Below the pieces are notes generated by a model. The model saw only the letters and a program-made list of their open reading frames with translations. It had not been told where the DNA came from and did not search any database. This document shows, in pieces, positions 14,346 to 30,854 of a stretch of DNA of 37,284 nucleotides (its first letter is position 1; every line of letters starts with the position of its first letter). A program made the position numbers and the translations under genes. The stretch is taken from contig VGYC01000058.1 of assembly GCA_016873095.1 (NCBI GenBank), positions 1 to 37,284 on the forward strand. Direction: 5' to 3'. The stretch comes from Planctomycetota bacterium (GTDB lineage: Bacteria; Planctomycetota; Planctomycetia; Gemmatales; Gemmataceae).

Positions 14346-14597
14346 ATGCAAGCCAGTTTTCAAGCCCGCCGAGTCTCGAAGCCTCGTGCGATCGTCCTGC
14401 GCGATGCGGCCGGCAAGGGCTGTATTCTGCTGTCGACCTTTCAGGGCACGATTGTCATCGCGCCCAAGGGGTCGCGAACGGTGGAAGGCAAAGTGCTTTC
14501 GACCGAGGAAGCCAGCTACGAGTTGCAGCCGGTATGGTGCACAGAGTCCAAGGCCAAGGTCGAAGAGGCCCGCAAGCGTCTCGGCCTCGATGAGTAG
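14346..14597 (+). CDS. Small hypothetical protein
   Basis: An 83-residue protein with no signal peptide or membrane segment. It is predicted to be mainly beta strand (IVLRDAAGKGCILLSTFQGTIVIAP) followed by a C-terminal helix (SKAKVEEARKRLGL). I do not recognise the family. AAAGGAA lies nine bases before the ATG. It follows the Ig-like gene by 15 bases and ends 23 bases before a strong terminator, so these two genes probably form a unit. Confidence 0.6.
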   Translation: MQASFQARRVSKPRAIVLRDAAGKGCILLSTFQGTIVIAPKGSRTVEGKVLSTEEASYELQPVWCTESKAKVEEARKRLGLDE

Positions 14598-14620
14598 TGA
14601 CTTTGGACGCCAATCGGTTG

Positions 14621-14662
14621 AGAGGCGACGGTTCTAGTCCGGGACCGTCGCCTCTTTTTTTG
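14621..14662 (+). terminator. Rho-independent terminator
   Basis: Twelve-base perfect arms AGAGGCGACGGT (14621-14632) and ACCGTCGCCTCT (14644-14655) with an 11-base loop, followed directly by seven further T residues (14656-14662). It closes the preceding transcript and isolates csrA. Confidence 0.92.
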
Positions 14663-14697
14663 CCGCTGTACCTGCTTTCGCAAAAGGGAAAAAGGCC

Positions 14698-14713
14698 GGC
14701 ACGACCTTTGCTT
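14698..14713 (+). promoter_or_regulatory. Sigma-54-type promoter for csrA
   Basis: CGGCACG, four bases, TTGCT: matches the sigma-54 consensus TGGCACG-N4-TTGCW except for the first base, with GG at 14699-14700 and GC at 14711-14712 at the required ten-base separation. A transcript would begin near 14724 and have a ~137-base leader before csrA. The same pattern recurs at 15551. Confidence 0.55.
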
Positions 14714-14860
14714 AGTCCATCACAGCGAGTTCGGCAAAAGCGTGTGTTTTTGTGCGGAAACAAACTCGCGGCATCCTCACCACTCATGTTTGGGCAGATT
14801 GTTGCTCGCAATTGCGCATCATCTTGCCCACGCGTGATCGCAGCTAGGGAAGGAGACATC

Positions 14861-15076
14861 ATGCTCGTTCTGTCAAGGCGCGTCGGCGAAAAGATCAAGA
14901 TCGGCAATGACGTGCTCGTCACCATCATCGCGGTCACGGGCAACCAGGTCCGCATCGGCATCGATGCGCCCCCCGAGATGACGATTCTGCGTGAAGAGCT
15001 GGAGCCATTCGCCAGAGACGAACGGCCGACGCTCGACCGCGGGCATTCCCGCAGCCGGGTCTTGGTTCATACATGA
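14861..15076 (+). CDS. csrA: Carbon storage regulator CsrA
   Basis: A 71-residue RNA-binding regulator. MLVLSRRVGEKIKIG and NQVRIGIDAPPE match CsrA throughout, and Arg44 (ILREEL), critical for RNA binding, is at the same position as in E. coli. CsrA dimers bind GGA motifs in mRNA leaders and control translation or mRNA decay. The C-terminal tail (ARDERPTLDRGHSRSR) is basic and a little longer than in E. coli. GGAGA lies six bases before the ATG, and the run AGGGAAGGAGA there contains GGA motifs, so autoregulation is possible. It stands alone after a terminator, behind a sigma-54-like promoter. Confidence 0.93.
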   Translation: MLVLSRRVGEKIKIGNDVLVTIIAVTGNQVRIGIDAPPEMTILREELEPFARDERPTLDRGHSRSRVLVHT

Positions 15077-16656: not shown

Positions 16657-18519
16657 ATGACGAGTTCCTCAAGGTTCGGCACTCTGTTTCTCACGGCTAT
16701 CGGGACGCTAATCGTGGCGGCATCTGCCACGCTCGTGTTCCGGTGGCTGATGCTGCCTGAGCCCGTGCAAGATGACTCGAAAGGCGAACCGGACCGCGGC
16801 TTTCGGGAATGTGCTCTGCAGTGCGGCTTGAATTTTCGCATGGCTTTCTTGCCCAAGGAGCAGGGCGAGAAATTCAAGATCAACCTGTACGATCACGGGT
16901 CGGGAGTGGCGATCGCCGATTATGACGGTGACGGCCACGACGATATCTACTTCGTCAATCAACTCGGTCCCAATGCTCTCTACCGCAATCGAGGCGATGG
17001 CACCTTCATCGATGTCACTCCTCAGGCCGGCGTGGCGCTTGGTGATCGTGTATGCGTGTCGGCAACGTTTGCCGACTACGACAATGACGGCCACAAGGAC
17101 CTGTACGTGCTGAGCACGCGCGGCGGCAACGTGCTGTTCCGCAATCAAGGCAACGGAACTTTCAAGGACGTTACTCGCGAAGCCGGCCTGATGCACGTCG
17201 GACATTCCCAGTCCGCCACGTTTTTTGATTACGACGGCGACGGCCGCCTCGACCTGTTCGTGACCAACACGGCGCGCTGGACGCTGGCGACCTACGATGC
17301 CGCACACCGCTATTATCCCGGCAAGTCCATCGCTGTTGGAGATGAGTTCACGAGCAGTCCGAAGGAGTCCAACATCCTCTATCGCAACAACGGCGACGGC
17401 ACTTTCAGCGATGTGACCAAGCAAGCTGGTCTTTCCGGGCGCGGCTGGAGCGGCGATGCCGTGGTCCTTGATTACAATCAGGACGGCCGGCTTGATCTCA
17501 TGGTGGGCAACATGTTCGGCCCGTCGCAGCTGTATCGCAACAACGGCGACGGCACCTTCACCAACGTCACGCGCGAGGCTCTTGGGCCGACCTCGTTCGG
17601 CTGCTGCGGCGTCAAGGCATTCGATTTCAACAACGACGGCAAGCTGGATCTCTTTCTGGCCGACATGCACTCGGACATGTGGATGGGGCTGGACAGGGAC
17701 CACGCCTCGCTACGCCAGGCCAAGACTCATCAGCGCACGCGCTTTCCAAACCTGGTTGGACCGAATGTCATCGACCATCCGGAATACAAGAAACAGGACC
17801 AGGTCAATGCGGACCTGCTAGGCTATCGAGTGGAGGAAGTAGTCTACGGCAACACGCTTTTCAAGAATCGCGGCAATGGCAAGTTCGAGGAGGTATCCGG
17901 TTCGGCTAACATGGAAACCTTCTGGCCGTGGGGCGTGGCCACGGGAGATTTCGACAACGACGGCCACGAGGACGTGTTCATGCCTTCCGGCATGGGCTAC
18001 CCATTCTATTACTGGCCCAATCAACTGATGATGAACAACGGCAACGAGACGTTCCGCGAGCGCGGTCGGGAACTGGGGATCGAACCCCCCGTACGCGGCA
18101 TGTATCTGGACGAGCGCATCGGCGGAGACCGGGCTTGCCGCAGTTCGCGGAGCGCGGCCGTGGCGGATTTCGACGGCGATGGACGCCTCGATATCGTCAC
18201 GAACAATTTCAATGACCAGCCGTATTACTTTCGGAACAAGCTGCCGGCTCGAAACTATCTTGCGTTTCGCTTGCGCGGCACCAAGAGCAATCGTGATGCG
18301 ATCGGCGCGGTGGTCACCTTGCACCTGGGCAAGGAAATCATGGTCCGGCAGGTCGCGCCGGCCGGCGGCTTCCTGTCACAGTCGTCGCACGACGTGCACT
18401 TTGGCCTGGGGGATCGTAGCCATGTCGATCAGGTCCGAATTCGCTGGCCCAGCGGCATTGTTACCGTCATCGCCAATCCTGCGATCAATCGCCGGCATGA
18501 TCTGACGGAAGCACCCTGA
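16657..18519 (+). CDS. CRTAC1-type FG-GAP/VCBS repeat protein with ASPIC/UnbV domain (paralogue 1)
   Basis: A 620-residue envelope protein. An N-terminal hydrophobic segment (LFLTAIGTLIVAASATLVF, about 9-27) is a signal anchor. The body is a beta-propeller of FG-GAP repeats with calcium-type loops DYDGDGHDD, DYDNDGHKD, DYDGDGRLD, DYNQDGRLD, FNNDGKLD, FDNDGHED, each followed by LYRNNGDGTFxDVT units. The end is an ASPIC/UnbV domain: LRGTKSNRDAIGAVVTLHLG and PAGGFLSQSSHDVHFGLGD, then VRIRWPSG. The family is named after human cartilage acidic protein 1; its bacterial role is not known. It is the first and most divergent of three tandem copies. The ribosome-binding site is weak. Confidence 0.9.
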   Translation: MTSSSRFGTLFLTAIGTLIVAASATLVFRWLMLPEPVQDDSKGEPDRGFRECALQCGLNFRMAFLPKEQGEKFKINLYDHGSGVAIADYDGDGHDDIYFVNQLGPNALYRNRGDGTFIDVTPQAGVALGDRVCVSATFADYDNDGHKDLYVLSTRGGNVLFRNQGNGTFKDVTREAGLMHVGHSQSATFFDYDGDGRLDLFVTNTARWTLATYDAAHRYYPGKSIAVGDEFTSSPKESNILYRNNGDGTFSDVTKQAGLSGRGWSGDAVVLDYNQDGRLDLMVGNMFGPSQLYRNNGDGTFTNVTREALGPTSFGCCGVKAFDFNNDGKLDLFLADMHSDMWMGLDRDHASLRQAKTHQRTRFPNLVGPNVIDHPEYKKQDQVNADLLGYRVEEVVYGNTLFKNRGNGKFEEVSGSANMETFWPWGVATGDFDNDGHEDVFMPSGMGYPFYYWPNQLMMNNGNETFRERGRELGIEPPVRGMYLDERIGGDRACRSSRSAAVADFDGDGRLDIVTNNFNDQPYYFRNKLPARNYLAFRLRGTKSNRDAIGAVVTLHLGKEIMVRQVAPAGGFLSQSSHDVHFGLGDRSHVDQVRIRWPSGIVTVIANPAINRRHDLTEAP

Positions 18520-18574
18520 AACCTGGCTGCATTAATCTCGCCTTCCCCGTGACCGCACTCAAACTGGATGGTCG

Positions 18575-20446
18575 ATGAACACAGCGAACAGCTTGCTTGG
18601 CCGCCTTGCTTTCCTTGCCGTGGCCCTGTCCAGTGCCGTGCTGCTTGGCTGGTGGCTTTTCTTCTCTGCAGAAAAGCCCGATCCCAACGAGAAATCGAAC
18701 GCGAAGCAACGCGCGGGCGGATTCAAGGATGTTGCCCGCGCCTCGGGCATCACATTTCACATGTCGTTCTTGCCGAATGAGCAAGGAGAGAATTTCAAGA
18801 TCAATCTCTACGACCACGGCTGCGGCGTCGCTGTCGCCGATATCGATGGCGATGGTTTCGAGGATTTGTATTTCCTCAATCAGCTCGGCGCCAATGCCCT
18901 GTACCGGAACAAGGGGGACGGAACTTTCAAGGACGTGACGCAAGCAGCCGGCGTTGGGCTCGGAGACCGGATCTGCGTTGGCGCCACGTTTGCGGACTAT
19001 GACAACGATGGCCATCCGGACCTGTACGTAACCAGCACGCGCGGCGGCAATGTTCTTTTCAAGAACCTGGGCAATGGCAAGTTCCGGGATGTCACCAAGG
19101 AGGCCGGCGTCGATCTGGTGGCACACTGTCAGACGGCGGTGTTTTTCGACTACGACAACGACGGCTTTCTCGACCTGTTCGTGACGTGCACGGCTAAATG
19201 GACGACGAGTTTCGATCGTGCGGCGGGTTATTATCCGGGCCTGGGCGACCTTCTGGAAGTGGCCACCAGCCCCCGCGAGTACAACGTACTTTACCGCAAC
19301 AACGGCAACGGCACGTTCAGCGACGTCACGGTCAAGGCCGGTCTGAAGGGTGTCGGCTGGGGGGGTGACACCAGCGTTTTCGATTTCGACGAAGACGGCC
19401 GCATCGACTTGCTCGTCACGAACATGTTCGGCCGCTCGCTGCTGTATCGCAACAATGGCAACGGCACCTTTTCGGACGTGACAGAGCAGGCGCTCGGGCG
19501 CACCTCGTGGGGCGCGATCGGCTCCAAGGCTTTCGATTACGATAACGACGGCAAGCTCGACCTGATGATCGTTGACATGCATTCCGATATGTGGCTGCCG
19601 CTGCACCAGCAAACCGACGATACATTGCTGGAATACATTCGCAAGCACGAGAAGATGCGCTATGAACGCGTCAGTGGCCCCCTGGTCGAACTGGACAAGC
19701 GCAAGGTCTTGCACGAGAGCAAGCTGGCAGACACGTTTCAGATCGATTACAAGCGTGTGATTTTCGGCAACACGCTTTTCAAGAACCTGGGCAACGGCCG
19801 GTTCAAGGAGGTCGCGGATCAGGCCGGGGTAGAAACGTTCTGGCCCTGGGGCATCGCCACCGGCGATTTCAACAACGACGGCTTTGAGGATGTCTTCCTG
19901 CCGTCCGGCATGGGATTTCCTTACTTCTACTGGCCCAATCGTCTACTCATGAATCAGGGCAAGGGCACGTTTGCAGAACAATCGGCAGAGCAAGGGCTGG
20001 AACCGCCTCTGGGTGGCATTCTTCAGGAAAAGAAGATCGGCGACAAGCCAGCCACGCGCAGTTCGCGCTGTGCCGCCGTTGCCGATTTTCGCAACGTCGG
20101 ACGACTCGACATCGTCACCAATAACTTCAACGACATCCCCTACTACTATCAGAACCAGTTTCCGCAGAAGAACTACATCTCCTTCCGACTGCGCGGCACC
20201 AAGAGCAACCGGGACGCCATCGGCGCCGTGGCCAGGCTGCGCCTTGGCGATAAGACCATGATTCGCCAGGTCCATGCCGCCGGCGGCTATCTGTCGCAGT
20301 CGTCGCGCACGCTGCACTTCGGCCTCGGCGATCACGCACACGTGGATCGCGTCGAGATTCACTGGCCCAGCGGCGTGCGACAAGTGATGAACGCGCCGGC
20401 CATCAACCGCTTGCACAGCATGGTCGAACCGGACCAGAAGAATTGA
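18575..20446 (+). CDS. CRTAC1-type FG-GAP/VCBS repeat protein with ASPIC/UnbV domain (paralogue 2)
   Basis: A 623-residue protein of the same architecture as its neighbours: signal anchor (LAFLAVALSSAVLLGWWLFF, about 9-28), KINLYDHGCGVAVADIDGDG and five or more further D-x-D-x-D-G calcium loops, a conserved DMHSDMWLPLHQQ segment near residue 335, then HAAGGYLSQSSRTLHFGLGD and EIHWPSG in the UnbV domain. It lies 55 bases after paralogue 1 and is closest to paralogue 3, with which it shares a 62-base perfectly identical stretch (19076-19137). The family is presumed to be a calcium-stabilised propeller outside the cytoplasm. The start has only a weak ribosome-binding site (GGATGG). Confidence 0.9.
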   Translation: MNTANSLLGRLAFLAVALSSAVLLGWWLFFSAEKPDPNEKSNAKQRAGGFKDVARASGITFHMSFLPNEQGENFKINLYDHGCGVAVADIDGDGFEDLYFLNQLGANALYRNKGDGTFKDVTQAAGVGLGDRICVGATFADYDNDGHPDLYVTSTRGGNVLFKNLGNGKFRDVTKEAGVDLVAHCQTAVFFDYDNDGFLDLFVTCTAKWTTSFDRAAGYYPGLGDLLEVATSPREYNVLYRNNGNGTFSDVTVKAGLKGVGWGGDTSVFDFDEDGRIDLLVTNMFGRSLLYRNNGNGTFSDVTEQALGRTSWGAIGSKAFDYDNDGKLDLMIVDMHSDMWLPLHQQTDDTLLEYIRKHEKMRYERVSGPLVELDKRKVLHESKLADTFQIDYKRVIFGNTLFKNLGNGRFKEVADQAGVETFWPWGIATGDFNNDGFEDVFLPSGMGFPYFYWPNRLLMNQGKGTFAEQSAEQGLEPPLGGILQEKKIGDKPATRSSRCAAVADFRNVGRLDIVTNNFNDIPYYYQNQFPQKNYISFRLRGTKSNRDAIGAVARLRLGDKTMIRQVHAAGGYLSQSSRTLHFGLGDHAHVDRVEIHWPSGVRQVMNAPAINRLHSMVEPDQKN

Positions 20447-20602
20447 CGCGTGACAGAATTGATGCGCGACGGCACTCGTTAATACGTTCACGGCGCAATC
20501 CGCTGCCGTTCACCAAATTCTCATCGTTGTTCAGCTATCCTCTATGAATGCAGCAGCGATGCCCGCATTCCGCGAGCAAGCGCGTCAGGAACGGAGCGAT
20601 CC

Positions 20603-22462
20603 ATGCGCGGCAACGTTTTGCTTGGCTTGCTGGCCGCGTTTCTCTTCGCAGCCCTGGCACTTGCCTTTTTCATCGATCCACACCGGAGCCCGGAAGAACC
20701 GCGCGACTGGAATGAACTGGGCGCTGGCGGCGGGTTCAAGGAGTCTGCGCGGCAGGCGGGCATTGCATTTCGCATGAAATGCCTGCCAGGCGAGCAGGGC
20801 GAGGACTTCAAAATCAACCTGTACGATCACGGTTGCGGCGTTGCCGTCGGAGATTACGACGGTGATGGTTACGAAGACATCTACTTCGTGAATCAGCTCG
20901 GCACAAACGCCCTGTACCGAAATCGCGGTGACGGATCGTTTGAGGATGCGACCCGCTACGCCGGAGTCGGCCTCGGGGACCGTATCTGCGTCGGTGCTAC
21001 CTTTGCGGACTACGATAACGATGGGCACGCGGACCTGTACGTTACCAGCACGCGCGGCGGCAATGTTCTTTTCAAGAATTTGGGCAACGGCAAGTTCCGG
21101 GATGTCACCAAGGAGGCCGGCGTCGATCTGGTGGCACACTGTCAGACGGCAGTGTTTTTCGACTACGACGGCGACGGTTTTCTCGACCTATTCGTGACGT
21201 GCACGGCCAAATGGACGACCAGTTTCGACCGTGCCGCGGGATATTACCGAGGCGCGGCCGATCTTGTGAACCTGGCCGGGAGTCCACGCGAATTCAATGT
21301 GCTCTACCGCAACAACGGCAATGGCACATTCAGCGACGTCACTGTCAAGGCTGGCTTGAAGGGAGTCGGCTGGGGGGGAGACACCAGCGTTTTCGATTTC
21401 GACGAGGACGGCTACATCGACCTGCTCGTGACGAACATGTTCGGGCGTTCGCAGCTGTACCGCAACAATGGCGATGGCTCATTTGCCGACGTGACGGACA
21501 AAGCTCTGGGACGTACCTCATGGGGCGCGATCGGCTCCAAGGCCTTCGATTTCGATAACGACGGCAAACTCGACTTGCTCATTGTCGACATGCACTCCGA
21601 TATGTGGCTGCCTGCCGATGTGCTGGCCAGTCAGCAGGTCGCCGAATTCATGAAGAAGAACGAGAAGGTCCGTTATCCCGGGGTCACCGGACCGTCCGTG
21701 CTCCAAAAGAATCTCAAGGCGCAGGACGCGGAACGAATGATTGCCGCCCAGTTTCAGATCAAGTACGACCGTGTGATTTTTGGCAACACGCTGTTCAAGA
21801 ACCTTGGCGGCGGGCGCTTCAAGGAAGTTGCCGACGAGGCCGGTCTGGAAACGTTTTGGCCCTGGGGAATCGCCACGGGCGACTTTGACAACGACGGCTT
21901 CGAGGACGTGTTCCTGCCTTCGGGCATGGGCTATCCCTACTTCTACTGGCCCAATCGCTTGCTGATGAATCAGGGCGACGGCACTTTCGCGGAGAGTGCA
22001 GCCAAGGAGGGAATCGAACCGCCGGCGGGGGGCCAGCACCTTCCAGAGAAAATCGGCAATGTGCCGGCAACGCGAAGCTCACGCTGCGCGGCCGTCGCCG
22101 ATTTTCGCAATAATGGGGGACTCGACATCGTCACCAACAACTTCAACGACGCCCCTTATTACTTCAAGAACCAGTTTCCGCAGAGGAACTACCTTTCACT
22201 CCGACTGCGCGGCAGCAAGAGCAACCGCGACGCCATCGGCGCCGTAGCGCGGCTGCGCCTTGGAGACAAGACTGTCGTTCGTCAGGTCCATGCGGCCGGC
22301 GGCTATCTGTCGCACTCGTCGCGCACGCTGCATTTCGGGCTCGGCGATCAGCGCCACGTGGATCGCCTCGAGATTCAATGGCCCAGCGGCTTGCGGCAAG
22401 TGATCGACGCGCCGGAGATCAATCGCCTGCATCGCATCGTCGAACCGGCCGCAACAAGGTGA
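20603..22462 (+). CDS. CRTAC1-type FG-GAP/VCBS repeat protein with ASPIC/UnbV domain (paralogue 3)
   Basis: A 619-residue third copy. It has a signal anchor (LLGLLAAFLFAALALAFFI, about 6-24), FG-GAP repeats with DYDGDGYED, DYDNDGHAD, DYDGDGFLD, FDEDGYID, FDNDGKLD and FDNDGFED loops, and a C-terminal UnbV domain. The segment after DMHSDMWLP differs from its siblings and may be where specificity lies. GGAG six bases before ATG 20603 is the best ribosome-binding site of the three. The 156-base gap before it could hold its own promoter. Its stop overlaps the region of the next start (TGATGTG), so it is tightly linked to the first double-MBL gene. Confidence 0.9.
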   Translation: MRGNVLLGLLAAFLFAALALAFFIDPHRSPEEPRDWNELGAGGGFKESARQAGIAFRMKCLPGEQGEDFKINLYDHGCGVAVGDYDGDGYEDIYFVNQLGTNALYRNRGDGSFEDATRYAGVGLGDRICVGATFADYDNDGHADLYVTSTRGGNVLFKNLGNGKFRDVTKEAGVDLVAHCQTAVFFDYDGDGFLDLFVTCTAKWTTSFDRAAGYYRGAADLVNLAGSPREFNVLYRNNGNGTFSDVTVKAGLKGVGWGGDTSVFDFDEDGYIDLLVTNMFGRSQLYRNNGDGSFADVTDKALGRTSWGAIGSKAFDFDNDGKLDLLIVDMHSDMWLPADVLASQQVAEFMKKNEKVRYPGVTGPSVLQKNLKAQDAERMIAAQFQIKYDRVIFGNTLFKNLGGGRFKEVADEAGLETFWPWGIATGDFDNDGFEDVFLPSGMGYPYFYWPNRLLMNQGDGTFAESAAKEGIEPPAGGQHLPEKIGNVPATRSSRCAAVADFRNNGGLDIVTNNFNDAPYYFKNQFPQRNYLSLRLRGSKSNRDAIGAVARLRLGDKTVVRQVHAAGGYLSHSSRTLHFGLGDQRHVDRLEIQWPSGLRQVIDAPEINRLHRIVEPAATR

Positions 22463-22463
22463 T

Positions 22464-24101
22464 GTGCAAGCAGCGGCGGACAAGACCATGAATGAAGAGC
22501 GTTTTCTGCCACTGTCCCGAGCGAAGCGGCGACTCATCGTCGGCATCGTCCTGCTGACATTTGTCCCGGTGCTTTGCTACCTGTGGTTCAAGGAGCGGCT
22601 AGGAGATCCTGACCTCCTGGCGAGCGTCCCCGCCCTGGGGCCCGTTCCGGTGACGGTCGTGCCGGGGGTGCACCTGCTTGGGGGATTGGCTCCCGCCGCT
22701 GCCTATGTCATTGAATCCAGCAGAGGCCTCATCCTGATCGACGCCGGACTGGAACGCGACGCGTCTGTCTTGAAGGCCCAGTTGGCGGCCCTGGGCCTGG
22801 ACTGGAAGCGTTTGCAAGCGATCTTCCTCACGCACATGCACCCGGATCACTCGGGCGGCGCCGAACACCTCCGCGAGCTTACCGGCGCCATCATCCATGC
22901 GGGCGGCGGCGACGTCGATGTTCTGCTTTCGCCGCCGCTGCATACTCCGGACGAGCAGCTGATCGCGCATTGGCCGTCACATTCGACCAAGGTAAATGTG
23001 CGACTGCGCCAGGACCAGACCATCGTTATCGGTGGCGTGCGCATTCATGCCCTGACCACACCCGGCCACAGCCCAGGGAGCATGTGCTACCTCGTGGAAC
23101 GAGGCCAGCTGCGGATCCTTTTTTCCGGCGACGTCATCATGACGCTCGGTGGCCCCAAAGTCTCGAAATCCAAGTTGACGAGACCTCTGGGGACGTATAC
23201 CGCTTACCTGTCACCCTTCTTGGGCGGCAGTGCCCAGGGGTTCCTGAACACGTTCCGGAAGCTGGCAGCGCTGCCACCTCCCGACTTGGTTCTGCCGGGA
23301 CACCCCCGGATGGACCAGACGTACCGCCGTCCGGCCATGTCGCAGGAGCGCTGGCGCGCCTTGCTCGATGACGGCATTCGCGAGATGGACCGCTTGCTAG
23401 CCCGCCTTTCCCGGGACGGCGCCCTGTTTCTTGACGGCGCTCCGAGACAGGTCTTGCCCGGCATGTACTACCTCGGTGATTTCCATGGCCATCCCGTCCC
23501 CACCTGGTTTGCCGGCTCACGACTGCACCTGATTGATGCACCGGGCGGCCCGGGTCTGGGAGACTTCGTCCGATCGCGGCTGGCCCAGCTGGGAGCCAGC
23601 CCGGAATTACCCGACGTCGTGATGTTGACTTCATGCGCGCCGGAGGCCATGGCCGGCCTCGGAGAACTGCTGGCACAGGGCGGTTCGTCTGTGGTGGTTG
23701 GCAAGGCCGGCATCGAGACAGTCAAGGGCCTCTGCCCGCGCAAGACGGTTATCCAGGCGGCGGAGGAATTACGTGGCGACGAATGGTCGGCGGTCACGGC
23801 GATTGCGTTGCCGGCGCCGGGGCCGGCATCGATTGCCTATCTCGTTCGCTGCGACAAAAAGCAGGTGCTATTCTCGGGGCGCGCTCCAGCGCCGCTCAAC
23901 AATCGGCTCGCCATCAAGCGCCTGGTTGGGGAACGCGACGCCCGGCAGAATGATTTCGCGCTGCGGGCCGCGCTCGATCTGCTTGCCGCACATAGGCCGG
24001 ACGTGTGGCTGCCCGCAGCGTCGTTGCTCGGCTTCAATGCGCTGCTTTACGACGATGACTGGCAAGAACTCATCGAGGAAAACCGGCGCTTTATCAAGTA
24101 G
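22464..24101 (+). CDS. Membrane-anchored double metallo-beta-lactamase-fold protein (paralogue 1)
   Basis: A 545-residue protein with a membrane helix at about 24-41. Residues 60-300 form a complete MBL domain: THMHPDH at 123-129, His202 in TPGHSPGS, Asp223 in FSGDVIM and His280 in VLPGHP, all the expected zinc ligands. Residues 340-545 look like a second, degenerate MBL fold: LHLIDAPGGPGLGDFV mirrors the first-domain strand LILIDAGLERDASVL, and VVMLTSCAPEAMAGLGEL occupies the place of the THxHxDH loop without its ligands; KQVLFSGRAP mirrors FSGDVI. Active sites face outward if the N-terminal helix is the anchor. The substrate is unknown. GTG 22464 has AGGTGA before it; ATG 22488 is an alternative start. 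Confidence 0.82.
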   Translation: MQAAADKTMNEERFLPLSRAKRRLIVGIVLLTFVPVLCYLWFKERLGDPDLLASVPALGPVPVTVVPGVHLLGGLAPAAAYVIESSRGLILIDAGLERDASVLKAQLAALGLDWKRLQAIFLTHMHPDHSGGAEHLRELTGAIIHAGGGDVDVLLSPPLHTPDEQLIAHWPSHSTKVNVRLRQDQTIVIGGVRIHALTTPGHSPGSMCYLVERGQLRILFSGDVIMTLGGPKVSKSKLTRPLGTYTAYLSPFLGGSAQGFLNTFRKLAALPPPDLVLPGHPRMDQTYRRPAMSQERWRALLDDGIREMDRLLARLSRDGALFLDGAPRQVLPGMYYLGDFHGHPVPTWFAGSRLHLIDAPGGPGLGDFVRSRLAQLGASPELPDVVMLTSCAPEAMAGLGELLAQGGSSVVVGKAGIETVKGLCPRKTVIQAAEELRGDEWSAVTAIALPAPGPASIAYLVRCDKKQVLFSGRAPAPLNNRLAIKRLVGERDARQNDFALRAALDLLAAHRPDVWLPAASLLGFNALLYDDDWQELIEENRRFIK

Positions 24102-24136
24102 TCTCGGACTATCGCGTAGCGAAGTCGTTGTACACC

Positions 24137-25747
24137 ATGCAAAGGTCCACGCCACCATCGCGAACGTTGATCGGAGGTTTTATTTTTCTGCTCATGGCGA
24201 CGTTGTTGCTTTACGGATGGCACGCTACACGCGAATCTTCTCCAGCCACCGCTGAACCTGCCGCTCTTCTTGGACCCACTGCCCTGACGATCGTGCCGGG
24301 GATTCATCTTCTGGGCGGGCTGGAGCCCGCGGCGGCGTATGTCGTGGACACCTCGGCGGGGCTGGTCCTGGTGGATGCAGGGCTCGATGCCGACGCCGGC
24401 GCGCTCAAGAAGCAGATGGCCAAGCTCGGCCTCGACTGGCAGCGGCTGCGCGCCATCTTCCTGACGCACGTGCACGGCGACCACAGCGGCGGCGCCGAGC
24501 ACCTGCGCCGCGCAACGGGGGCGACGGTCTACGCGGGAGCCCGGGACGCCCAGATCCTGCGCGCGGGCAAGCCGCGCTCCGCTTTCTTCGGTTCGCTGTT
24601 GTGGCGCGGGACGGCACAGCCAACCGCCGTGGACGTGGAATTGCACGGCAACGAGCGCATCGCCATCGGCAACGCGGTCTTTCACTCCTTGGCCAGTCCC
24701 GGCCACAGCCCGGGCAGCGTCTGCTACTTGCTGGAAATGGACGGAAAGCGCGAGTTCTTCTCCGGTGACGTGATCATGTCCTTGACCGGTCACGCGTTAT
24801 CGATCTCCAAGCTCAAACGGCCGCTGGGAACCTATGCCGCATACTTGTCCCAGCGTGGTCGTGGCGATGCCGTCGCCTTCCTCGATACGCTGACCCGGCT
24901 GCGCGCGCTCCCCGTTCCAGATCTGGTGCTGCCCGGCCATCCACGCAATGATGGCACACCGCAGAGCCCGCGTCTGTCGGAAGCGCGCTGGCAGGCGCTG
25001 CTGGATGACGGCATTGCCGACATGAAGCGGCTCATCGCCCGCGCGCAAGCCCATCCGCCCAGCTTTCTGGACAGCGGTCCGAAGCGGCTCTCGACTCATC
25101 TCTATTTTTGCGGTCTTCTCGAAGGCGCTCCGGTCTACGGTTTTGTGGCCGCGTCGCGGTTCTTTGTCGTGGACGCGCCGGGCGGAGCGCTGCTGACCGA
25201 TTTTGTGTCTTCGCGCATGCGGGAGCTGGACAAGGCATCCGCGACGCCGGCAGCGCCAACGGCCGTCCTGCTCACGTCCGGAGGTGAGCGTGCAACGTCC
25301 GGGCTCGCGGACTTGGTGAAGCGAACCGGGGCCACGGTCGTGGTCGCCGCCGACGGCATGGCCAGGGTGAAGGAGATCTGCCCGCCCGGCACCCGGATCA
25401 TTTCTGCCGCGGAATTGCCGGAGCAAGGCTGGTTCGAGGCGCGCTCCAGCGCGCTGCTGGGGCCGGGCCTGGCCACCGTGGCTTATCAGGTCGTCCTCGA
25501 CGACAAGAAGATCCTGTTCTCCGGTGGACTGCCGGTACCGGTCCACAACGAAATCGCCGTGCGACGGCTCTTTGCTGACATCGAGGCGCGGCGGAGCATT
25601 GCCGAGTTCCTCGGCTCCCTGAAACAGCTCGAACAGTTCCACCCCGATGCCTGGCTGCCCTCCTGGCCCCTGGAGGGGCACAATGCCAACCTCCATGACC
25701 GCGACTGGCAAGAAATCCTGGAAGACAACCGTGACCTGGTGCGCTGA
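24137..25747 (+). CDS. Membrane-anchored double metallo-beta-lactamase-fold protein (paralogue 2)
   Basis: A 536-residue paralogue of the preceding gene, similar along its whole length. A membrane helix (LIGGFIFLLMATLLLYGW) lies at residues 11-28, THVHGDHSGG at about 110-119, SPGHSPGS, FSGDVIM and VLPGHPRND supply the remaining zinc ligands. The second half again lacks ligands: VLLTSGGERATSGLADL in place of THxHxDH. Both proteins end in a similar NLHDRDWQEILEDNRDLV segment, so the C-terminal half is conserved despite losing its metal site. ATG 24137 is chosen; a TTG nine bases earlier is also open. No strong ribosome-binding site is seen. It is 35 bases after paralogue 1 and 42 bases before the selenoprotein gene. 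Confidence 0.82.
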   Translation: MQRSTPPSRTLIGGFIFLLMATLLLYGWHATRESSPATAEPAALLGPTALTIVPGIHLLGGLEPAAAYVVDTSAGLVLVDAGLDADAGALKKQMAKLGLDWQRLRAIFLTHVHGDHSGGAEHLRRATGATVYAGARDAQILRAGKPRSAFFGSLLWRGTAQPTAVDVELHGNERIAIGNAVFHSLASPGHSPGSVCYLLEMDGKREFFSGDVIMSLTGHALSISKLKRPLGTYAAYLSQRGRGDAVAFLDTLTRLRALPVPDLVLPGHPRNDGTPQSPRLSEARWQALLDDGIADMKRLIARAQAHPPSFLDSGPKRLSTHLYFCGLLEGAPVYGFVAASRFFVVDAPGGALLTDFVSSRMRELDKASATPAAPTAVLLTSGGERATSGLADLVKRTGATVVVAADGMARVKEICPPGTRIISAAELPEQGWFEARSSALLGPGLATVAYQVVLDDKKILFSGGLPVPVHNEIAVRRLFADIEARRSIAEFLGSLKQLEQFHPDAWLPSWPLEGHNANLHDRDWQEILEDNRDLVR

Positions 25748-25789
25748 TCCGTTCACACGGCCGGCCCCGATTTTTTTTGGAAAGGAACC

Positions 25790-26482
25790 ATGGATCCAGA
25801 TCATTCACAGGTCCCACGTCAGCACGAGATCAAGCGGCGGCCGATGTGCCGAGCCCTGTTCCGCAAGAGAACATGGCTGGGCATGACCGGCATGGCCTTG
25901 CTGGCTGGGACATACTTCGGCCTCGGCGAGCAGTCGCGTCCGGAGGCCCTGGTGGCGGTCGAGGGCAACCTGCATGTCGGACAACCAGCGCCGGACTTCG
26001 AACTGCTCGAGGCCGCCAGCGGCCGCAATGTGAAGCTGTCTTCCTTCAGGGGCAAGAGAGCCGTCGTGTTGATATTCGGCAGCCTGACCTGAACACCGCG
26101 ACTTGGCCGGTCTGGCCAGATCTCAGAGTTGGCCCAGCGTCACAAGGGCCAGGCACAATTTTACTTCGTCTACATTCGCGAAGGACACAAGATGCTGCCG
26201 GTCATGCGCAACGGCATCATCGCCATCGACAAGATTGAAGAGGCCCGCGACTTCGCTGAGCGCTGCCAGCGCGCCAGGACCTGCGGCACGAACCTCGGCC
26301 TTTCCGTGCTCGGTGATGGCGCGGACAATGCCGCCGGCGCCGCCTACGCCGCCTGGCCGCAACGTGTCTATGTGATCGGTCTCGACGGCTTGATCACATT
26401 CAAGGGCCGATCGGGAACCATGACCGGGCAAGACTTGCCCCTGGCACTGGATCGCTTGCCAGCTCCGGGCGGCCTGGATTGA
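25790..26482 (+). CDS. Selenocysteine-containing iodothyronine deiodinase-like thioredoxin-fold protein (TGA 26090 read as Sec)
   Basis: I read this as one 230-residue gene with Sec at position 101. Residues 27-46 are a membrane anchor. VGQPAPDFELLEAASGRNVKLS and RAVVLIFGSLT then open a thioredoxin fold; the next codon is TGA (26090-26092), and the same frame continues with GQISELAQRHKGQAQFYFVY, IREGHKM, DNAAGAAYAAWPQRVYVI and FKGRSGTM up to a TGA at 26480. Deiodinases have the active site FGSxTU followed by a strand ending VYI-E-H and a late NNANIAYG-type segment, so both halves are homologous to one family and TGA sits exactly at the catalytic position. A SECIS-like hairpin follows immediately. 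AAAGGA lies three bases before the ATG. Bacterial members are presumed to be redox enzymes; an iodinated substrate is not implied. A nonsense mutation of an ancestral Cys codon is the alternative. Confidence 0.85.
26090..26122 (+). promoter_or_regulatory. Bacterial SECIS element following UGA-Sec
   Basis: Eleven bases after the TGA, TTGGCC (26103-26108 region) pairs with GGCCAG (26114-26119), one pair being a G-U wobble, and closes the five-base loop GGTCT (26109-26113). Beyond a C-A mismatch two more pairs (GA with TC) extend the stem. The loop is identical to the GGUCU apical loop of the E. coli fdhF SECIS, whose G and U contact SelB, and sits only two bases closer to the UGA. Confidence 0.78.
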
Positions 26483-26569: not shown

Positions 26570-27091
26570 CTAAATCGCTGAGCGATAGCAATGATCGAAG
26601 AGCAGTTCCCACTCGACCTGTTGCACCTGGCGAGCGAGCGTTTCCAGGTCTGAGCCGGTCCCGCGGACGCGCTCCACGAGATCCACGAAAGCAAAGGGAG
26701 TGGTGAACTCGAAACGAAGACCGGCAGCACGCTCCGACAGCGTCTTCAGGACCGGATGATTGCCGACGCGTCGCCACCAGTACTTGCTGTTATTCGGGTC
26801 CGGCTCGCGGCGATGCATGATGGCATGCCAGAAGCTGCCGCTCGCCGTCTCGATTTCCTGTGCGCGCTTGTGCGCTTCATCGAGAAAATCGTGATAGAGC
26901 CACAACCCCGCCAGGCAGCACAAGGCCATCTCCCGGTCACGGACAACCAGCGGCGCAAACGCGGTCTCAACCGTCAATGCTTGCAAGGCAGGCTGCATCG
27001 TCCGGTTGGGGGATCCCGGTCCGAGGGGATTGAGGCGCTTCTCGGCCAGAAGTACAGCGAGCGCCGAGCTGTAGGCGCGGTTCGAGTTCAT
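26570..27091 (-). CDS. Conserved hypothetical protein
   Basis: A 173-residue soluble, mainly helical protein. The segment WLYHDFLDEAHKRAQEIE, then SFWHAIMHRREPDPNNSKYW and WRRVGNHPVL, looks strongly conserved and I recall similar planctomycete proteins of unknown function; the clustered His, Arg, Asp and Trp suggest an active or binding site. No signal peptide. The start is uncertain: ATG 27091 overlaps the end of the glycosyltransferase frame by 125 bases and has no ribosome-binding site, while ATG 26998 would still overlap by 32 bases and leave 142 residues including the conserved part. Confidence 0.65.
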   Translation of the reverse strand: MNSNRAYSSALAVLLAEKRLNPLGPGSPNRTMQPALQALTVETAFAPLVVRDREMALCCLAGLWLYHDFLDEAHKRAQEIETASGSFWHAIMHRREPDPNNSKYWWRRVGNHPVLKTLSERAAGLRFEFTTPFAFVDLVERVRGTGSDLETLARQVQQVEWELLFDHCYRSAI

Positions 27092-28145
27092 GATGATGAG
27101 TGTTATAGTGCGCCGCCAGTCCGCCCGTCCTTTCCTGGCGGCGAATGGCTCGACTCAGCCGTCGACGCGCCGCGCGGAAGTTGCCGCGAGCCATCTCGCC
27201 GGCCAGTGCCGCCTGCTCGCCGGCCACGCCGCCGGCGTGCCGATTTCGCCGGCAGTGCCCGAGCAGCCAGCGCAGCCAGGCCTCCAGACGCACGATCGCG
27301 CCGAGCACGCGAAGCTGCCAGCGCGGCCAGTGGCGGGCGGCGTACGTCAGCAGTGAATGCCGCACCACCAGGCGAAGCATGGGCGGCACGCGCCGCCGAT
27401 GCAGCGGTTCATGGTGCACGACGCGCAACGTCGGCTCGTGCCAGACCGTCCAGCCGCGGTCGCGGGCCCGGCGGCACAGGTCCACGTCCTCGTAGTACAG
27501 GAAGAAATGCTTGTCGAGTCCGCCGACGTCGTCGAAGCACTCCTTGCGAATGAGCAGACAACAACCGCTCACCCAGTCGACCTGCCGCCGCCGCCGGCTT
27601 GCAACAACCTGGCAGCGCCGCCGGCAGCGCGGCATGATCAGGCCGACCAAGCAGCGCAGCAGCGTGGGAAACCGGCCGACCGACGGTTGCAGGCCGTTAT
27701 CGCCATCACGAACCTGGAAACCGACGATTCCGGCGCGCGGCGCGGATGCGGCAAGCCGGTCCGCATGGCCGATGACACCTTCGATGAATCCAGGCGTGAC
27801 GCTCATGTCGGGGTTGAGCAGCAAGAGCCACGACCCGCGGCTGAGGCGAACGCCCTCGTTGACGGCCCGGGCAAAGCCATGGTTGCGTCCCCAGCGCCGT
27901 AGCGACACACCCTCGGTCCGTCGAAGTTGCGGGAGCAGCCGATGGGGCGGCGAATGGTTATCCACCACCATGATTTCCACGTCGCCGCGGGCAGCGGCCT
28001 GGCTGGACAGAACCTGCCCGGCCAGCGCCGCGGTGTTTTCCCATTGCCGATAGTTGACGACGATGATGGAAAGTCGAGGCACGGCGGCCCCGGTCGAGGC
28101 AGGAGCCGAGGGCCGAAGTGGCTGGCGAGTTTCGGTTCCGTCCAT
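26967..28145 (-). CDS. Family 2 glycosyltransferase
   Basis: A 392-residue GT-A glycosyltransferase of the rhamnosyltransferase-like group. It has LSIIVVNYRQWENT near residue 25, MVVDNHSPP, GRNHGFARAVNEGVRLS, LLLLNPDMSV in place of the DxD motif, and the later VDWVSGCCLLIRKECFDDVG and HFFLYYEDVDLCRRARDRGW acceptor-side motif. Such enzymes add sugars to lipopolysaccharide, exopolysaccharide or glycoproteins. The last ~100 residues are Arg-rich and low in complexity, and the final 40 overlap the next gene in another frame, so the true C-terminus may have been extended by a lost stop. ATG 28145 is preceded by GGAG at eight bases; the frame is open further upstream to 28229. Confidence 0.83.
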   Translation of the reverse strand: MDGTETRQPLRPSAPASTGAAVPRLSIIVVNYRQWENTAALAGQVLSSQAAARGDVEIMVVDNHSPPHRLLPQLRRTEGVSLRRWGRNHGFARAVNEGVRLSRGSWLLLLNPDMSVTPGFIEGVIGHADRLAASAPRAGIVGFQVRDGDNGLQPSVGRFPTLLRCLVGLIMPRCRRRCQVVASRRRRQVDWVSGCCLLIRKECFDDVGGLDKHFFLYYEDVDLCRRARDRGWTVWHEPTLRVVHHEPLHRRRVPPMLRLVVRHSLLTYAARHWPRWQLRVLGAIVRLEAWLRWLLGHCRRNRHAGGVAGEQAALAGEMARGNFRAARRRLSRAIRRQERTGGLAAHYNTHHHELEPRLQLGARCTSGREAPQSPRTGIPQPDDAACLASIDG

Positions 28146-28355
28146 GAAATCGACTCCGAAGCAACCGCCCGGATCAATCGGGCCGCGGGCGGAACCACCA
28201 GTATAGTGCAGCCTGCCGGATTCGAGCAATGGCGAAGCGGCGGCAGTGTGTCAGTGTGACGGTGTAACGCTCGCCGCTTTACTCGGACACATGTTCTCAA
28301 TATTTGTGAATGTAGAACCCTCTCTCGAGACATGGTGAGTGTCTCACTGACAACG

Positions 28356-28401
28356 GTTCCGCACATTCCATGTGCGGAACGCGGCACGCGGAGTGTGCCG
28401 C
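28356..28401. repeat. Two adjacent hairpins with 7-base loops
   Basis: GTTCCGCAC (28356-28364) and GTGCGGAAC (28372-28380) flank ATTCCAT; then, with no gap, GCGGCAC (28381-28387) and GTGCCGC (28395-28401) flank GCGGAGT. Both are perfect. They lie just before the MacA-like gene and may form a leader structure or be a small mobile palindrome. Confidence 0.6.
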
Positions 28402-28428
28402 CTAACAATCCGAGGCGTGAGATCGCGC

Positions 28429-29826
28429 GTGAAGAAACTGTTGCTATTCTTGATCCTCGTGGGCGGGGCCCTGGCCGGCATCGCCGCATGGATCAACTAT
28501 CCGCGGCGGATCGCCGTAAATGAGAAGATCTTCTCCTACGCGCCGGTCGAGCGCGGCCGCATGATGGAGGCCATTAGCGCCACCGGCATTGTTCACATCG
28601 AATCGACCAAGCTCCTGCTCGTCGGCAGCACGATGCCCGGCACGGTTGTCGGCGTGTTCGGCAAGGTCAATGACATGGTGCAGGAAGGCGACGTGCTCTT
28701 GAAACTGGATGATCGCAAGCTGCACCTGAAAGTCGAGGAGGCACGCAACGGGATCAAGACGGCGGAAGCGGCCCTGGCCCAGGCCAATGCGTCGCTGGCT
28801 CAGGCCCAAGCGCTGCACGAGGCCGCAAGGTTAGCGTTCAAGTACCAGAAAGAAATCGAGGCCAAGGGCGGCTTTCGCTCGGAGCGTGATCAGGCGGAAG
28901 TGAAGGTGAAGTCGGCCGTGGCGGGCGTGCAAGCCGCCGAAGCCGGCGTGAAGCTGGCCAAGGCACAGCGCCAGGGAGCAGAAATCCTCGGCCGGGAGGC
29001 GCAACTCGCCTTCGATCTGGCGCGCGTCATCGTGCCGCGCGTGTCGCGGCATGCATCGGCAAATACCCTGGCGTCGGCCGATACGGCCGCTTCCGATCTC
29101 CCGCCGCACGATTATCTCATCGTCGAGAGCAAGGTTCAGCTCGGACAGCAGGTTGGTCCCGGTGGCCCGCCGCTGTTCACGCTGGCCCGCGATCTCGATC
29201 GCATTCAGGTGCTCGCCCAGGTGGCTGAAGGTGACATCGGCAAGGTCAAGAAAGGCCTGTTGGCGGCGTTCACGGTCAGTGCCTTTTCGGATGAGAATGT
29301 CGAGTTTCGGGGCAAGGTCAAGGAGATCCGCCCGGTGCCGGCGAACGTAAAGGGCGCGATCTTCTACGACACCGTTGTTGACGTAGACAACCAGCGTGAC
29401 CCGGACACAAAAGAATGGCGGCTCCGGCCGGGCATGACCGCCGCGGTGGACGTCATTCGTCGCCGGCACGACAACGTCTGGAAGATGCCGAGCGCGGCGC
29501 TCAATTTTCAGATGGAGGAACCGTATCAGTCGACCGCCGCCAAGGCGCACCTTGCCGAGTTCAAGCAGCGCGCCGATCAAGAGCACTGGCGGCCGATCTG
29601 GATCTGGGATGAAGAAAAGTCTCAACCGTGGCCGGTCTTCGTTCGCGTCGGCGGGCAGGACAAGAACGGCGAACCGGGCATCAAGGACGGCGGTTTCAAC
29701 GAAGTTCTGGAATGGGAGGCCGGCCGCATACCAAGCACCAGCCAACCGCACCGCGTCATCATCGCCGCCCCGCCAGCCCAGGCTCCGGGCTTTCTCGACC
29801 GTCCAGCAAATATCAAGGTCTCCTAG
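28429..29826 (+). CDS. MacA-like periplasmic adaptor (HlyD family)
   Basis: A 465-residue membrane-fusion protein. It begins with a membrane anchor (LLLFLILVGGALAGIAAWI). The biotinyl-lipoyl half motif VGSTMPGTVVGVFGKVNDMV with QEGDVLLKLDD is followed by a long coiled-coil hairpin rich in Ala and Gln (about 100-200), then the second lipoyl half (VESKVQLGQQVGPGGPPLFTLARD) and a beta-barrel (DIGKVKKGLLAAFTVSAF). Such adaptors link an inner-membrane ABC pump to the outer membrane. The C-terminal ~100 residues (PIWIWDEEKSQPWPVFVRVG) are an extra piece seen in planctomycete versions. I place the start at GTG 28429, nine codons from several alternatives upstream. The ABC ATPase follows by 50 bases. 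Confidence 0.82.
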   Translation: MKKLLLFLILVGGALAGIAAWINYPRRIAVNEKIFSYAPVERGRMMEAISATGIVHIESTKLLLVGSTMPGTVVGVFGKVNDMVQEGDVLLKLDDRKLHLKVEEARNGIKTAEAALAQANASLAQAQALHEAARLAFKYQKEIEAKGGFRSERDQAEVKVKSAVAGVQAAEAGVKLAKAQRQGAEILGREAQLAFDLARVIVPRVSRHASANTLASADTAASDLPPHDYLIVESKVQLGQQVGPGGPPLFTLARDLDRIQVLAQVAEGDIGKVKKGLLAAFTVSAFSDENVEFRGKVKEIRPVPANVKGAIFYDTVVDVDNQRDPDTKEWRLRPGMTAAVDVIRRRHDNVWKMPSAALNFQMEEPYQSTAAKAHLAEFKQRADQEHWRPIWIWDEEKSQPWPVFVRVGGQDKNGEPGIKDGGFNEVLEWEAGRIPSTSQPHRVIIAAPPAQAPGFLDRPANIKVS

Positions 29827-29831
29827 GAAGT

Positions 29832-29876
29832 TTCAATGTTCAGACCGGAACATTGAACATTGAACACGGAACACTG
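29832..29876. repeat. Inverted and short direct repeats between adaptor and ATPase genes
   Basis: TTCAATGTTC (29832-29841) and GAACATTGAA (29848-29857) form a 10-base-arm palindrome with a 6-base loop. On its right side it runs into repeated seven-base units of the kind ATTGAAC, ATTGAAC, ACGGAAC up to the ATPase start. It may be a stable intercistronic hairpin. Confidence 0.55.
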
Positions 29877-30617
29877 ATGTCCGTCATCGAACTCGACAAC
29901 GTGCACAAGACCTACGACACCGGCGAGGTGCAGGTGCAGGCGTTGCGCGGCGTATCGCTGTCCGTCCTTGCCGGCGAGTTCGTGGCCATCATGGGGGCCA
30001 GCGGATCGGGCAAATCCACGCTCATGAACATCATCGGCTGCCTGGACCATCCCACGTCCGGGACGTATCGCTTTTCCGGGCGCGACATCAATCGCCTCAG
30101 CCGCGCCGAACTGGCCAACATCCGCAACCGGCAACTCGGCTTCATCTTTCAGGGTTTCAACTTGCTCAAGCGTTACTCGGCGCTGGGCAATGTCGAACTA
30201 CCGCTGGTCTACGCTGGCGTCTCACCGCGCCAGCGCCGAGAAAGGGCGCTGGAGAAGCTCAAGCTTGTTCATCTGGAGGATCGCGCCAGCCATCATCCCA
30301 GCCAGCTTTCCGGCGGGCAGCAGCAACGCGTCGCCATCGCGCGCGCGCTCGTCAACAACCCGCATGTGCTCCTTGCCGACGAGCCGACGGGCAATCTCGA
30401 CTCCAAGGCCGGCGCGGAAGTGCTCGGCATCGTCAAGGACCTCAACCGTACCCTGGGACAAACGGTCATCCTGGTAACGCACGACGCGGCCATCGCGGCC
30501 CACGCCGATCGGCAGATCATCATCCGCGACGGCCTGGTGGACAGCGACATCATCCGCCATCATGCCCACTGCCCGGAGCTGGAGATGCTGGACGAACCGT
30601 TGCGCACTGGCGAATGA
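29877..30617 (+). CDS. ABC transporter ATP-binding protein (LolD/MacB-type)
   Basis: A 246-residue ATPase. Walker A is GASGSGKST at 40-48, the Q-loop FIFQGFNLLKRYSAL at about 89-103, the signature LSGGQ at 144-148, Walker B VLLADEP at 164-170 with the D-loop GNLDS, and the H-loop His at 202 (LVTHD). The sequence resembles the MacB/LolD/FtsE group, which drives mechanotransmission pumps rather than ordinary import. A matching FtsX-type permease would be expected next but is not present; an OPT transporter follows after 237 noncoding bases. The upstream frame is open but ATG 29877 gives the normal family N-terminus (IELDNVHKTYDTG). Confidence 0.92.
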   Translation: MSVIELDNVHKTYDTGEVQVQALRGVSLSVLAGEFVAIMGASGSGKSTLMNIIGCLDHPTSGTYRFSGRDINRLSRAELANIRNRQLGFIFQGFNLLKRYSALGNVELPLVYAGVSPRQRRERALEKLKLVHLEDRASHHPSQLSGGQQQRVAIARALVNNPHVLLADEPTGNLDSKAGAEVLGIVKDLNRTLGQTVILVTHDAAIAAHADRQIIIRDGLVDSDIIRHHAHCPELEMLDEPLRTGE

Positions 30618-30854
30618 CACTTCATTGGCTGTGCCGGCTTCTGGCAAGGCTGCAGGTGCCTCCATAATCCGCGTGCTCCCCAGTGACCCGACCTCGGCTG
30701 TCACATCGTCATCCTGGCCGCGGGGTCGTCGTTACGTATCGTCATGCATAGCATCTGGCCGGACGGCAAAAAAGATCCTGCCACACGTGGTGCGGCAGAA
30801 TCGGGGTCCTTGGCCCATTGCTGAAACGCAATCGCCGATCCAGGAGAATCACCC

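Follow-up and report, generated by a model that had tools for sequence, protein, structure and literature searches.

We have analysed a stretch of DNA of 37,284 nucleotides (hereafter, the window), which is the whole of contig C58 of a genome of 8.36 Mb (548 contigs, 95.5% complete), and we regard positions 16657-25747, with moderate confidence, as an instance of a partnership that is conserved in Planctomycetota: a membrane-anchored propeller of the CRTAC1 type is paired with a protein of the metallo-beta-lactamase (MBL) fold, in which one domain is of catalytic type and the other has no metal ligands. This reading is built on the families to which the proteins belong, on the pattern of the metal ligands, on the internal duplication of the MBL proteins, and on the recurrent adjacency of the two kinds of gene. 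An earlier note had proposed that the six genes of the block that contains the pair form a single functional unit; what we find is a core of two conserved parts, next to which lies an unrelated neighbour.

Composition of the block

The six open reading frames of the block, all on the forward strand, have been confirmed at the following coordinates, with one RNA element inside the last of them:

16657-18519, + strand: FG1, 620 aa, type I UnbV protein; PF13517, PF01839 and PF07593 above cut-off
18575-20446, + strand: FG2, 623 aa, FG-GAP/UnbV_ASPIC protein, recent duplicate of FG3
20603-22462, + strand: FG3, 619 aa, FG-GAP/UnbV_ASPIC protein; MBL1 begins 1 base after its end
22464-24101, + strand: MBL1, membrane-anchored tandem MBL-fold protein (Lactamase_B)
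24137-25747, + strand: MBL2, in-place paralogue of MBL1 (Lactamase_B)
25790-26482, + strand: predicted deiodinase-like selenoprotein (T4_deiodinase), with an in-frame TGA as the Sec codon at 26090-26092 (residue 101)
26103-26119, + strand: SECIS-like hairpin of the bacterial kind after the UGA, with 6 pairs and a 5-base loop that holds a conserved G

The gaps of 55, 156, 1, 35 and 42 bases, as previously reported, are correct with the start of MBL2 at ATG 24137; a TTG at 24128 is a possible alternative. The N-terminal membrane anchor that had been assigned to all six proteins is found by hydropathy in the three UnbV and the two MBL proteins (best 19-residue Kyte-Doolittle means of 1.9-2.8), and is doubtful in the deiodinase-like protein (1.0). 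Scans of the window for promoters and terminators gave counts equal to those of shuffled sequences or little more, and are uninformative on co-transcription; an Rfam search of the window gave no match. Around the block, a CsrA-like domain (74.6 bits) is located at 14597-15076, about 1.6 kb upstream, as the C-terminal part of an over-long open reading frame; downstream, a glycosyltransferase gene on the reverse strand (26967-28229) lies between the block and forward-strand genes for an HlyD-type protein, an ABC ATPase and an OPT oligopeptide transporter (28372-32810).

In each of FG1, FG2 and FG3, Pfam finds FG-GAP_3 and, after the FG-GAP repeats, UnbV_ASPIC (PF07593), which scores 71-79 bits where the cut-off is 23.4. 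FG1 has a hydrophobic N-terminal segment, and its predicted structure (pLDDT 74) has murine CRTAC1 (9etn) as a clear first match, with an E-value of 1e-27 and TM scores of 0.60/0.67. FG2 and FG3 are 76-78% identical and are sisters in the tree (support 100/100); FG1 is about 59% identical to both and is not resolved as their sister, and a fourth type I copy, located on contig C19, groups next to FG2 and FG3 with modest support (81/92).

MBL1 and MBL2 are matched by Lactamase_B at 106 and 88 bits, respectively; they are 47% identical and are sisters in the tree (98/99). Each consists of a hydrophobic N-terminal segment and two MBL-like halves, and in MBL1 the N domain, at about residues 59-318, carries seven metal ligands, with the C domain, at about residues 319-545, being devoid of the HxHxDH ligands. 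The N halves of all 23 family members compared share H124, H126, D128, H129, H202, D223 and H280; HxHxDH and the downstream His, Asp and His ligands are thus present in each of these N domains and absent from the C domain, where the HxHxDH position reads LTS...G, with only T389 constant and G398 nearly so in the 23 members. Profiles of the N and the C halves, built from the 23 members, align over 219 columns with 99.7% probability (22% identity, E 2e-25). The MBL protein has thus arisen by internal duplication, and the term “double MBL” of the earlier note is right as a description of the fold, with the metal ligands kept in the N half. Residues 59-319 of the model of MBL1 (pLDDT 79, pTM 0.72) match B3-type MBLs with Z scores of 23-26; the matches of the fold search with this model were taken up by the N domain, and the fold of the C half is taken from the profile comparison and from the secondary structure of the model. 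Scores for subclass B3 metallo-beta-lactamase (NF033105; 98.2 and 116.6 bits against a cut-off of 240) and for glyoxalase II, GloB (TIGR03413; 49.7 bits for both proteins against 200.8), are far below the cut-offs, and the MBL proteins are therefore placed in neither family; D223, located in a GDV motif, presumably resembles the bridging Asp that glyoxalase II and lactonases have.

Two gene families had been said to be duplicated in place, with the block expanding as a unit. The duplication in place is supported for MBL1/MBL2 and for FG2/FG3; the expansion as a unit is contradicted by the trees and the identities, since the tandem duplication that gave MBL1/MBL2 and the one that gave FG2/FG3 have separate histories.

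Recurrence of the UnbV-MBL pair

The double-MBL gene is rare: of 102 genomes from the order, 2 have it, and of 397 sampled from the class, 25 have it, in 16 genera; absences are soft, because the class searches scored only three candidates for each genome. The phylum sample has yielded no relative outside the class and the plasmid collection no relative of MBL1; across 84,980 species, with one genome per species, relatives of more than 38% identity occur solely in records titled Planctomycetota.

When the MBL neighbourhoods were searched with all six proteins of the block, 21 of the 25 genomes, and 13 of the 16 genera, proved to have a UnbV gene no more than 2.4 kb away from the double-MBL gene. 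The chance expectation is 0.6 genomes (P ~1e-30) and 0.4 genera (P ~3e-19) under a simple model that treats UnbV genes as independently scattered and ignores their clustering and shared ancestry; the gap is still very wide. The genomes that have no UnbV neighbour are G156 and G310, where the flanks are full, and G043 and G326, where the contigs are short; G043, whose contig is the record in L026, is a Gemmataceae bin of the same family as the genome of the window.

UnbV_ASPIC is present in 27 of 27 tested proteins, i.e. the UnbV neighbours and the three proteins of the window, and these belong to just two subfamilies: type I, of about 620-660 aa (the window and loci L028, L029 and L166-L169), and a longer type, mostly of about 800 aa, in the other lineages. 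The UnbV gene precedes the MBL gene in the window and in L152, L161 and L166-L172, and follows it in L028, L029, L149-L150, L153-L156, L159-L160, L162, L164 and L174; the two share a strand everywhere but in L163 and L165, two loci with sister MBL proteins. Since lineages differ in the order and the strand is nearly constant, the two genes have stayed adjacent, or have become so again, in spite of rearrangement, and the occurrence of two UnbV subfamilies and of both gene orders makes the pairing very probably functional. What the adjacency shows is that the two are tied in function, not that they form a complex. At the level of whole genomes, type I UnbV and MBL are likewise found together (Fisher P 1e-5, or 1e-4 when the genome of the window is left out), and in 5 of 11 genomes type I UnbV occurs without MBL, clustered with genes for an ABC exporter and a NosL-like protein; UnbV therefore has other partners. 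We have found no published description of the UnbV-MBL pair in searchable papers.

The selenoprotein and the redox genes around type I UnbV

Read through its in-frame TGA, the last gene of the block is matched by T4_deiodinase (PF00837) at 58.1 bits against 27, and it scores 105 against 250 with NF038285. Its protein reads UTPRLG and EGHK where the relatives read UPPFR and EAHP, so that both the PPF[RV] that follows Sec and the EAHP motif have been lost; two tandem copies on contig C31 (L183) keep EAHP and a near-complete PPFR motif, which marks the copy of the window as a diverged paralogue. The TGA is located at the same site in 11 relatives from other genomes, and one further relative has Cys. 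In nine relatives, 98% of the cells of the SECIS hairpin are paired and two pairs have changed on both sides; at one pair, C-G, A-U and G-C are found, the window having the G-C form. The predicted RNA fold of the 59 bases that follow the UGA did not surpass those of shuffled sequences (z -0.5), and it is the comparative count of the hairpin that is decisive instead. The genome carries selB (381 bits against 242), and those matches to Rfam RF01852 in this assembly that were checked with ARAGORN are ordinary tRNAs; selB without a confirmed tRNA-Sec may reflect an assembly gap or a divergent tRNA-Sec. By its sequence and that of its relatives, the gene genuinely codes for a selenoprotein, whose role is probably a general one in selenol/thiol redox chemistry.

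Relatives of the deiodinase-like protein are common: 145 of the 397 genomes sampled from the class have one, as do, by Pfam, 56 of the 102 from the order. None is present in any other MBL neighbourhood, and in the genomes that have both genes, these are on different contigs or megabases apart; conversely, a full UnbV gene is located within 2 kb in 1 of 20 deiodinase neighbourhoods, about as expected from the density of UnbV genes, and a weak partial match in one more. The co-occurrence of homologues that a six-gene unit implies thus breaks down at the deiodinase: on the basis of these neighbourhoods we reject it as a part of the module, and we judge it to be an accidental neighbour of the core.

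In genomes that carry type I UnbV, whether or not they have MBL, the UnbV gene is often part of another conserved cluster: a membrane protein with invariant Cys and His and no Pfam match, a NosL-like protein, which at 25.7 bits is barely above the cut-off of 24, UnbV, a permease of the FtsX/MacB type and a LolD-like ATPase. The UnbV slot is located between the NosL-like and the permease genes in relatives; on contig C254 of the genome of the window, a cluster of 49-56% identity holds a different small open reading frame in this slot, with UnbV copies elsewhere. In the block itself, the NosL, FtsX and LolD genes are not adjacent to UnbV. Cytochromes c of six to seven hemes also adjoin UnbV genes, UnbV-MBL pairs, or both, and flank the pair in L028, L029, L161 and L171. 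The positions are:

L252 (own genome, contig C254), 258-4110: NosL-like/permease/ATPase cluster
L176, 7472-13118: NosL-like/permease/ATPase cluster
L169, L177, L178 and L180: NosL-like/permease/ATPase cluster
L028, 8431-9858: multiheme cytochrome c
L029, 173-1588: multiheme cytochrome c
L161, 4521-6386: multiheme cytochrome c
L171, 1-1332: multiheme cytochrome c
L188, 7638-9686: multiheme cytochrome c

L028 and L029 are near-identical cytochrome-MBL-UnbV loci, with cytochromes that are 86% identical; the bins are titled Planctomyces sp. and Candidatus Kuenenia stuttgartiensis, and the second may be mislabelled. A CRTAC1-family gene has been described between hydrazine-synthase-like genes in Planctomycetota (PMC12758564). 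Together, these cases hint at a redox or metal setting, and do not fix the substrate.

Mechanism, alternatives and known systems

The most likely mechanism would be that of an outward-facing metallohydrolase that acts with a calcium-propeller partner. Both the UnbV and the MBL proteins may face the periplasm or the outside, as suggested by the single N-terminal anchor, with a topology drawn from hydropathy alone, and by the FG-GAP calcium sites. The N domain of the MBL protein would be an active dinuclear metallohydrolase, of a type that cleaves esters, lactones or thioesters; docking or the shaping of the substrate may be the task of the domain without ligands, and the propeller may bind the substrate or hold the hydrolase. 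In the window, the separate amplification of three propellers and two hydrolases suggests different substrate or partner specificities. That a tandem metallohydrolase with one live and one dead domain has the CRTAC1-type propeller as its working partner, in a two-component extracytoplasmic enzyme system specific to Planctomycetota, is a tentative proposal, which we consider possible and somewhat doubtful.

The pairing could be dismissed as a chance cluster if UnbV genes were so abundant in Planctomycetota that their adjacency to MBL genes was meaningless. FG-GAP/UnbV proteins do occur in many copies per planctomycete genome, with 16 genes in the genome of the window and 8-44 in each MBL-bearing genome, and they cluster among themselves in some loci; runs of three to six side-by-side UnbV genes, on both strands, are seen in L154, L165, L179 and L163. 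The counts of adjacency, however, with the deiodinase neighbourhoods as the control, refute chance for UnbV and MBL, leaving it next to no probability there, and chance stands for the deiodinase. At the other extreme, the earlier note saw in all six genes one possible pathway, in which propeller, MBL hydrolase and selenium enzyme would carry out, for example, dehalogenation and the cleavage of an extracellular substrate. The common strand and the short gaps are consistent with this, as is the somewhat higher frequency of deiodinase relatives where the MBL gene is present (17 of 25 such genomes, compared with 128 of 372 others; P 0.001, uncorrected for kinship and confounded by lineage), but the separation of the deiodinase from MBL and from UnbV in relatives, its weak N-terminal hydrophobic segment and its lost family motifs make the full pathway very improbable, and nothing supports dehalogenation.

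The remaining alternatives accept the pair and assign it another role. The two proteins may belong to the same pathway and never touch, with the MBL protein hydrolysing what UnbV binds, transports or adheres to; both gene orders, two UnbV subfamilies, variable spacing and the occurrence of type I UnbV in the exporter cluster without MBL fit this, and nothing decisive speaks against it, although the choice of two UnbV subfamilies among the many in each genome hints at a specific partner. We consider this separate action rather unlikely. Alternatively, UnbV, the NosL-like protein, the FtsX/LolD-like proteins and the multiheme cytochromes may form a periplasmic redox or copper system, with the MBL protein as a maturation or repair factor; the clusters around type I UnbV in relatives, the UnbV-less cluster on C254, the adjoining cytochromes and the hydrazine-synthase-like case argue for it, but none of the proposed partners is found in the block, most MBL loci are without them and the NosL match is marginal, and we hold metal or electron handling to be improbable.

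The preferred reading, a conserved UnbV-MBL partnership, gives the question of UnbV/CRTAC1 function a recurrent and specific enzyme partner, through which it becomes directly testable, and it brings out a family of tandem MBL proteins, so far uncharacterised, in which one domain is ligand-less; as a caution, the selenoprotein that gives the block its exotic look is unlinked. CRTAC1 has, to our knowledge, no settled molecular function, and the two-component system, if true, would offer the first genetic clue to the role of UnbV/CRTAC1 and a testable model for an orphan human protein. The pair appears to be new to the searchable literature, and our proposal of a mechanism stops at the outward-facing hydrolase and its propeller partner.

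Among known systems, the bacterial deiodinase-like selenoproteins (PMC1088965) share with the last gene of the block PF00837, Sec at the same site and a SECIS hairpin directly after the UGA, and differ from it in the PPFR after Sec and the EAHP, which the copy of the window does not have. The hydrazine-synthase-like cluster (PMC12758564) likewise keeps a CRTAC1-type gene beside enzyme genes, but its partner is a heme redox complex (hydrazine-synthase-like alpha and beta-gamma subunits), not an MBL protein; by Pfam, no gene for such a subunit is recognised among the six of the block. Class B3-type MBLs (BJP-1, L1) and HARLDQ MBL-fold proteins resemble the block MBLs in the fold of the N domain and in HxHxDH, and the block MBLs differ from them in scoring far below the curated cut-offs, in the conserved Asp223 of the GDV motif, in the membrane anchor and in the second, ligand-less MBL domain. 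An internal duplication in which one half keeps the active site is also the architecture of tRNase ZL, where the C half is the active one. tRNase ZL, a tandem MBL protein with related amino and carboxy domains, one of which holds the active site (PMC3714273), is a eukaryotic RNA enzyme, and the block MBLs are not members of its family on any test. Closest to the propellers is the CRTAC1/ASPIC-UnbV family (PF07593 with FG-GAP repeats), for which no MBL partner has been described in searchable papers; the UnbV proteins of the window have its domain order and its fold, and differ from it in their N-terminal anchor and in their MBL-fold partner.
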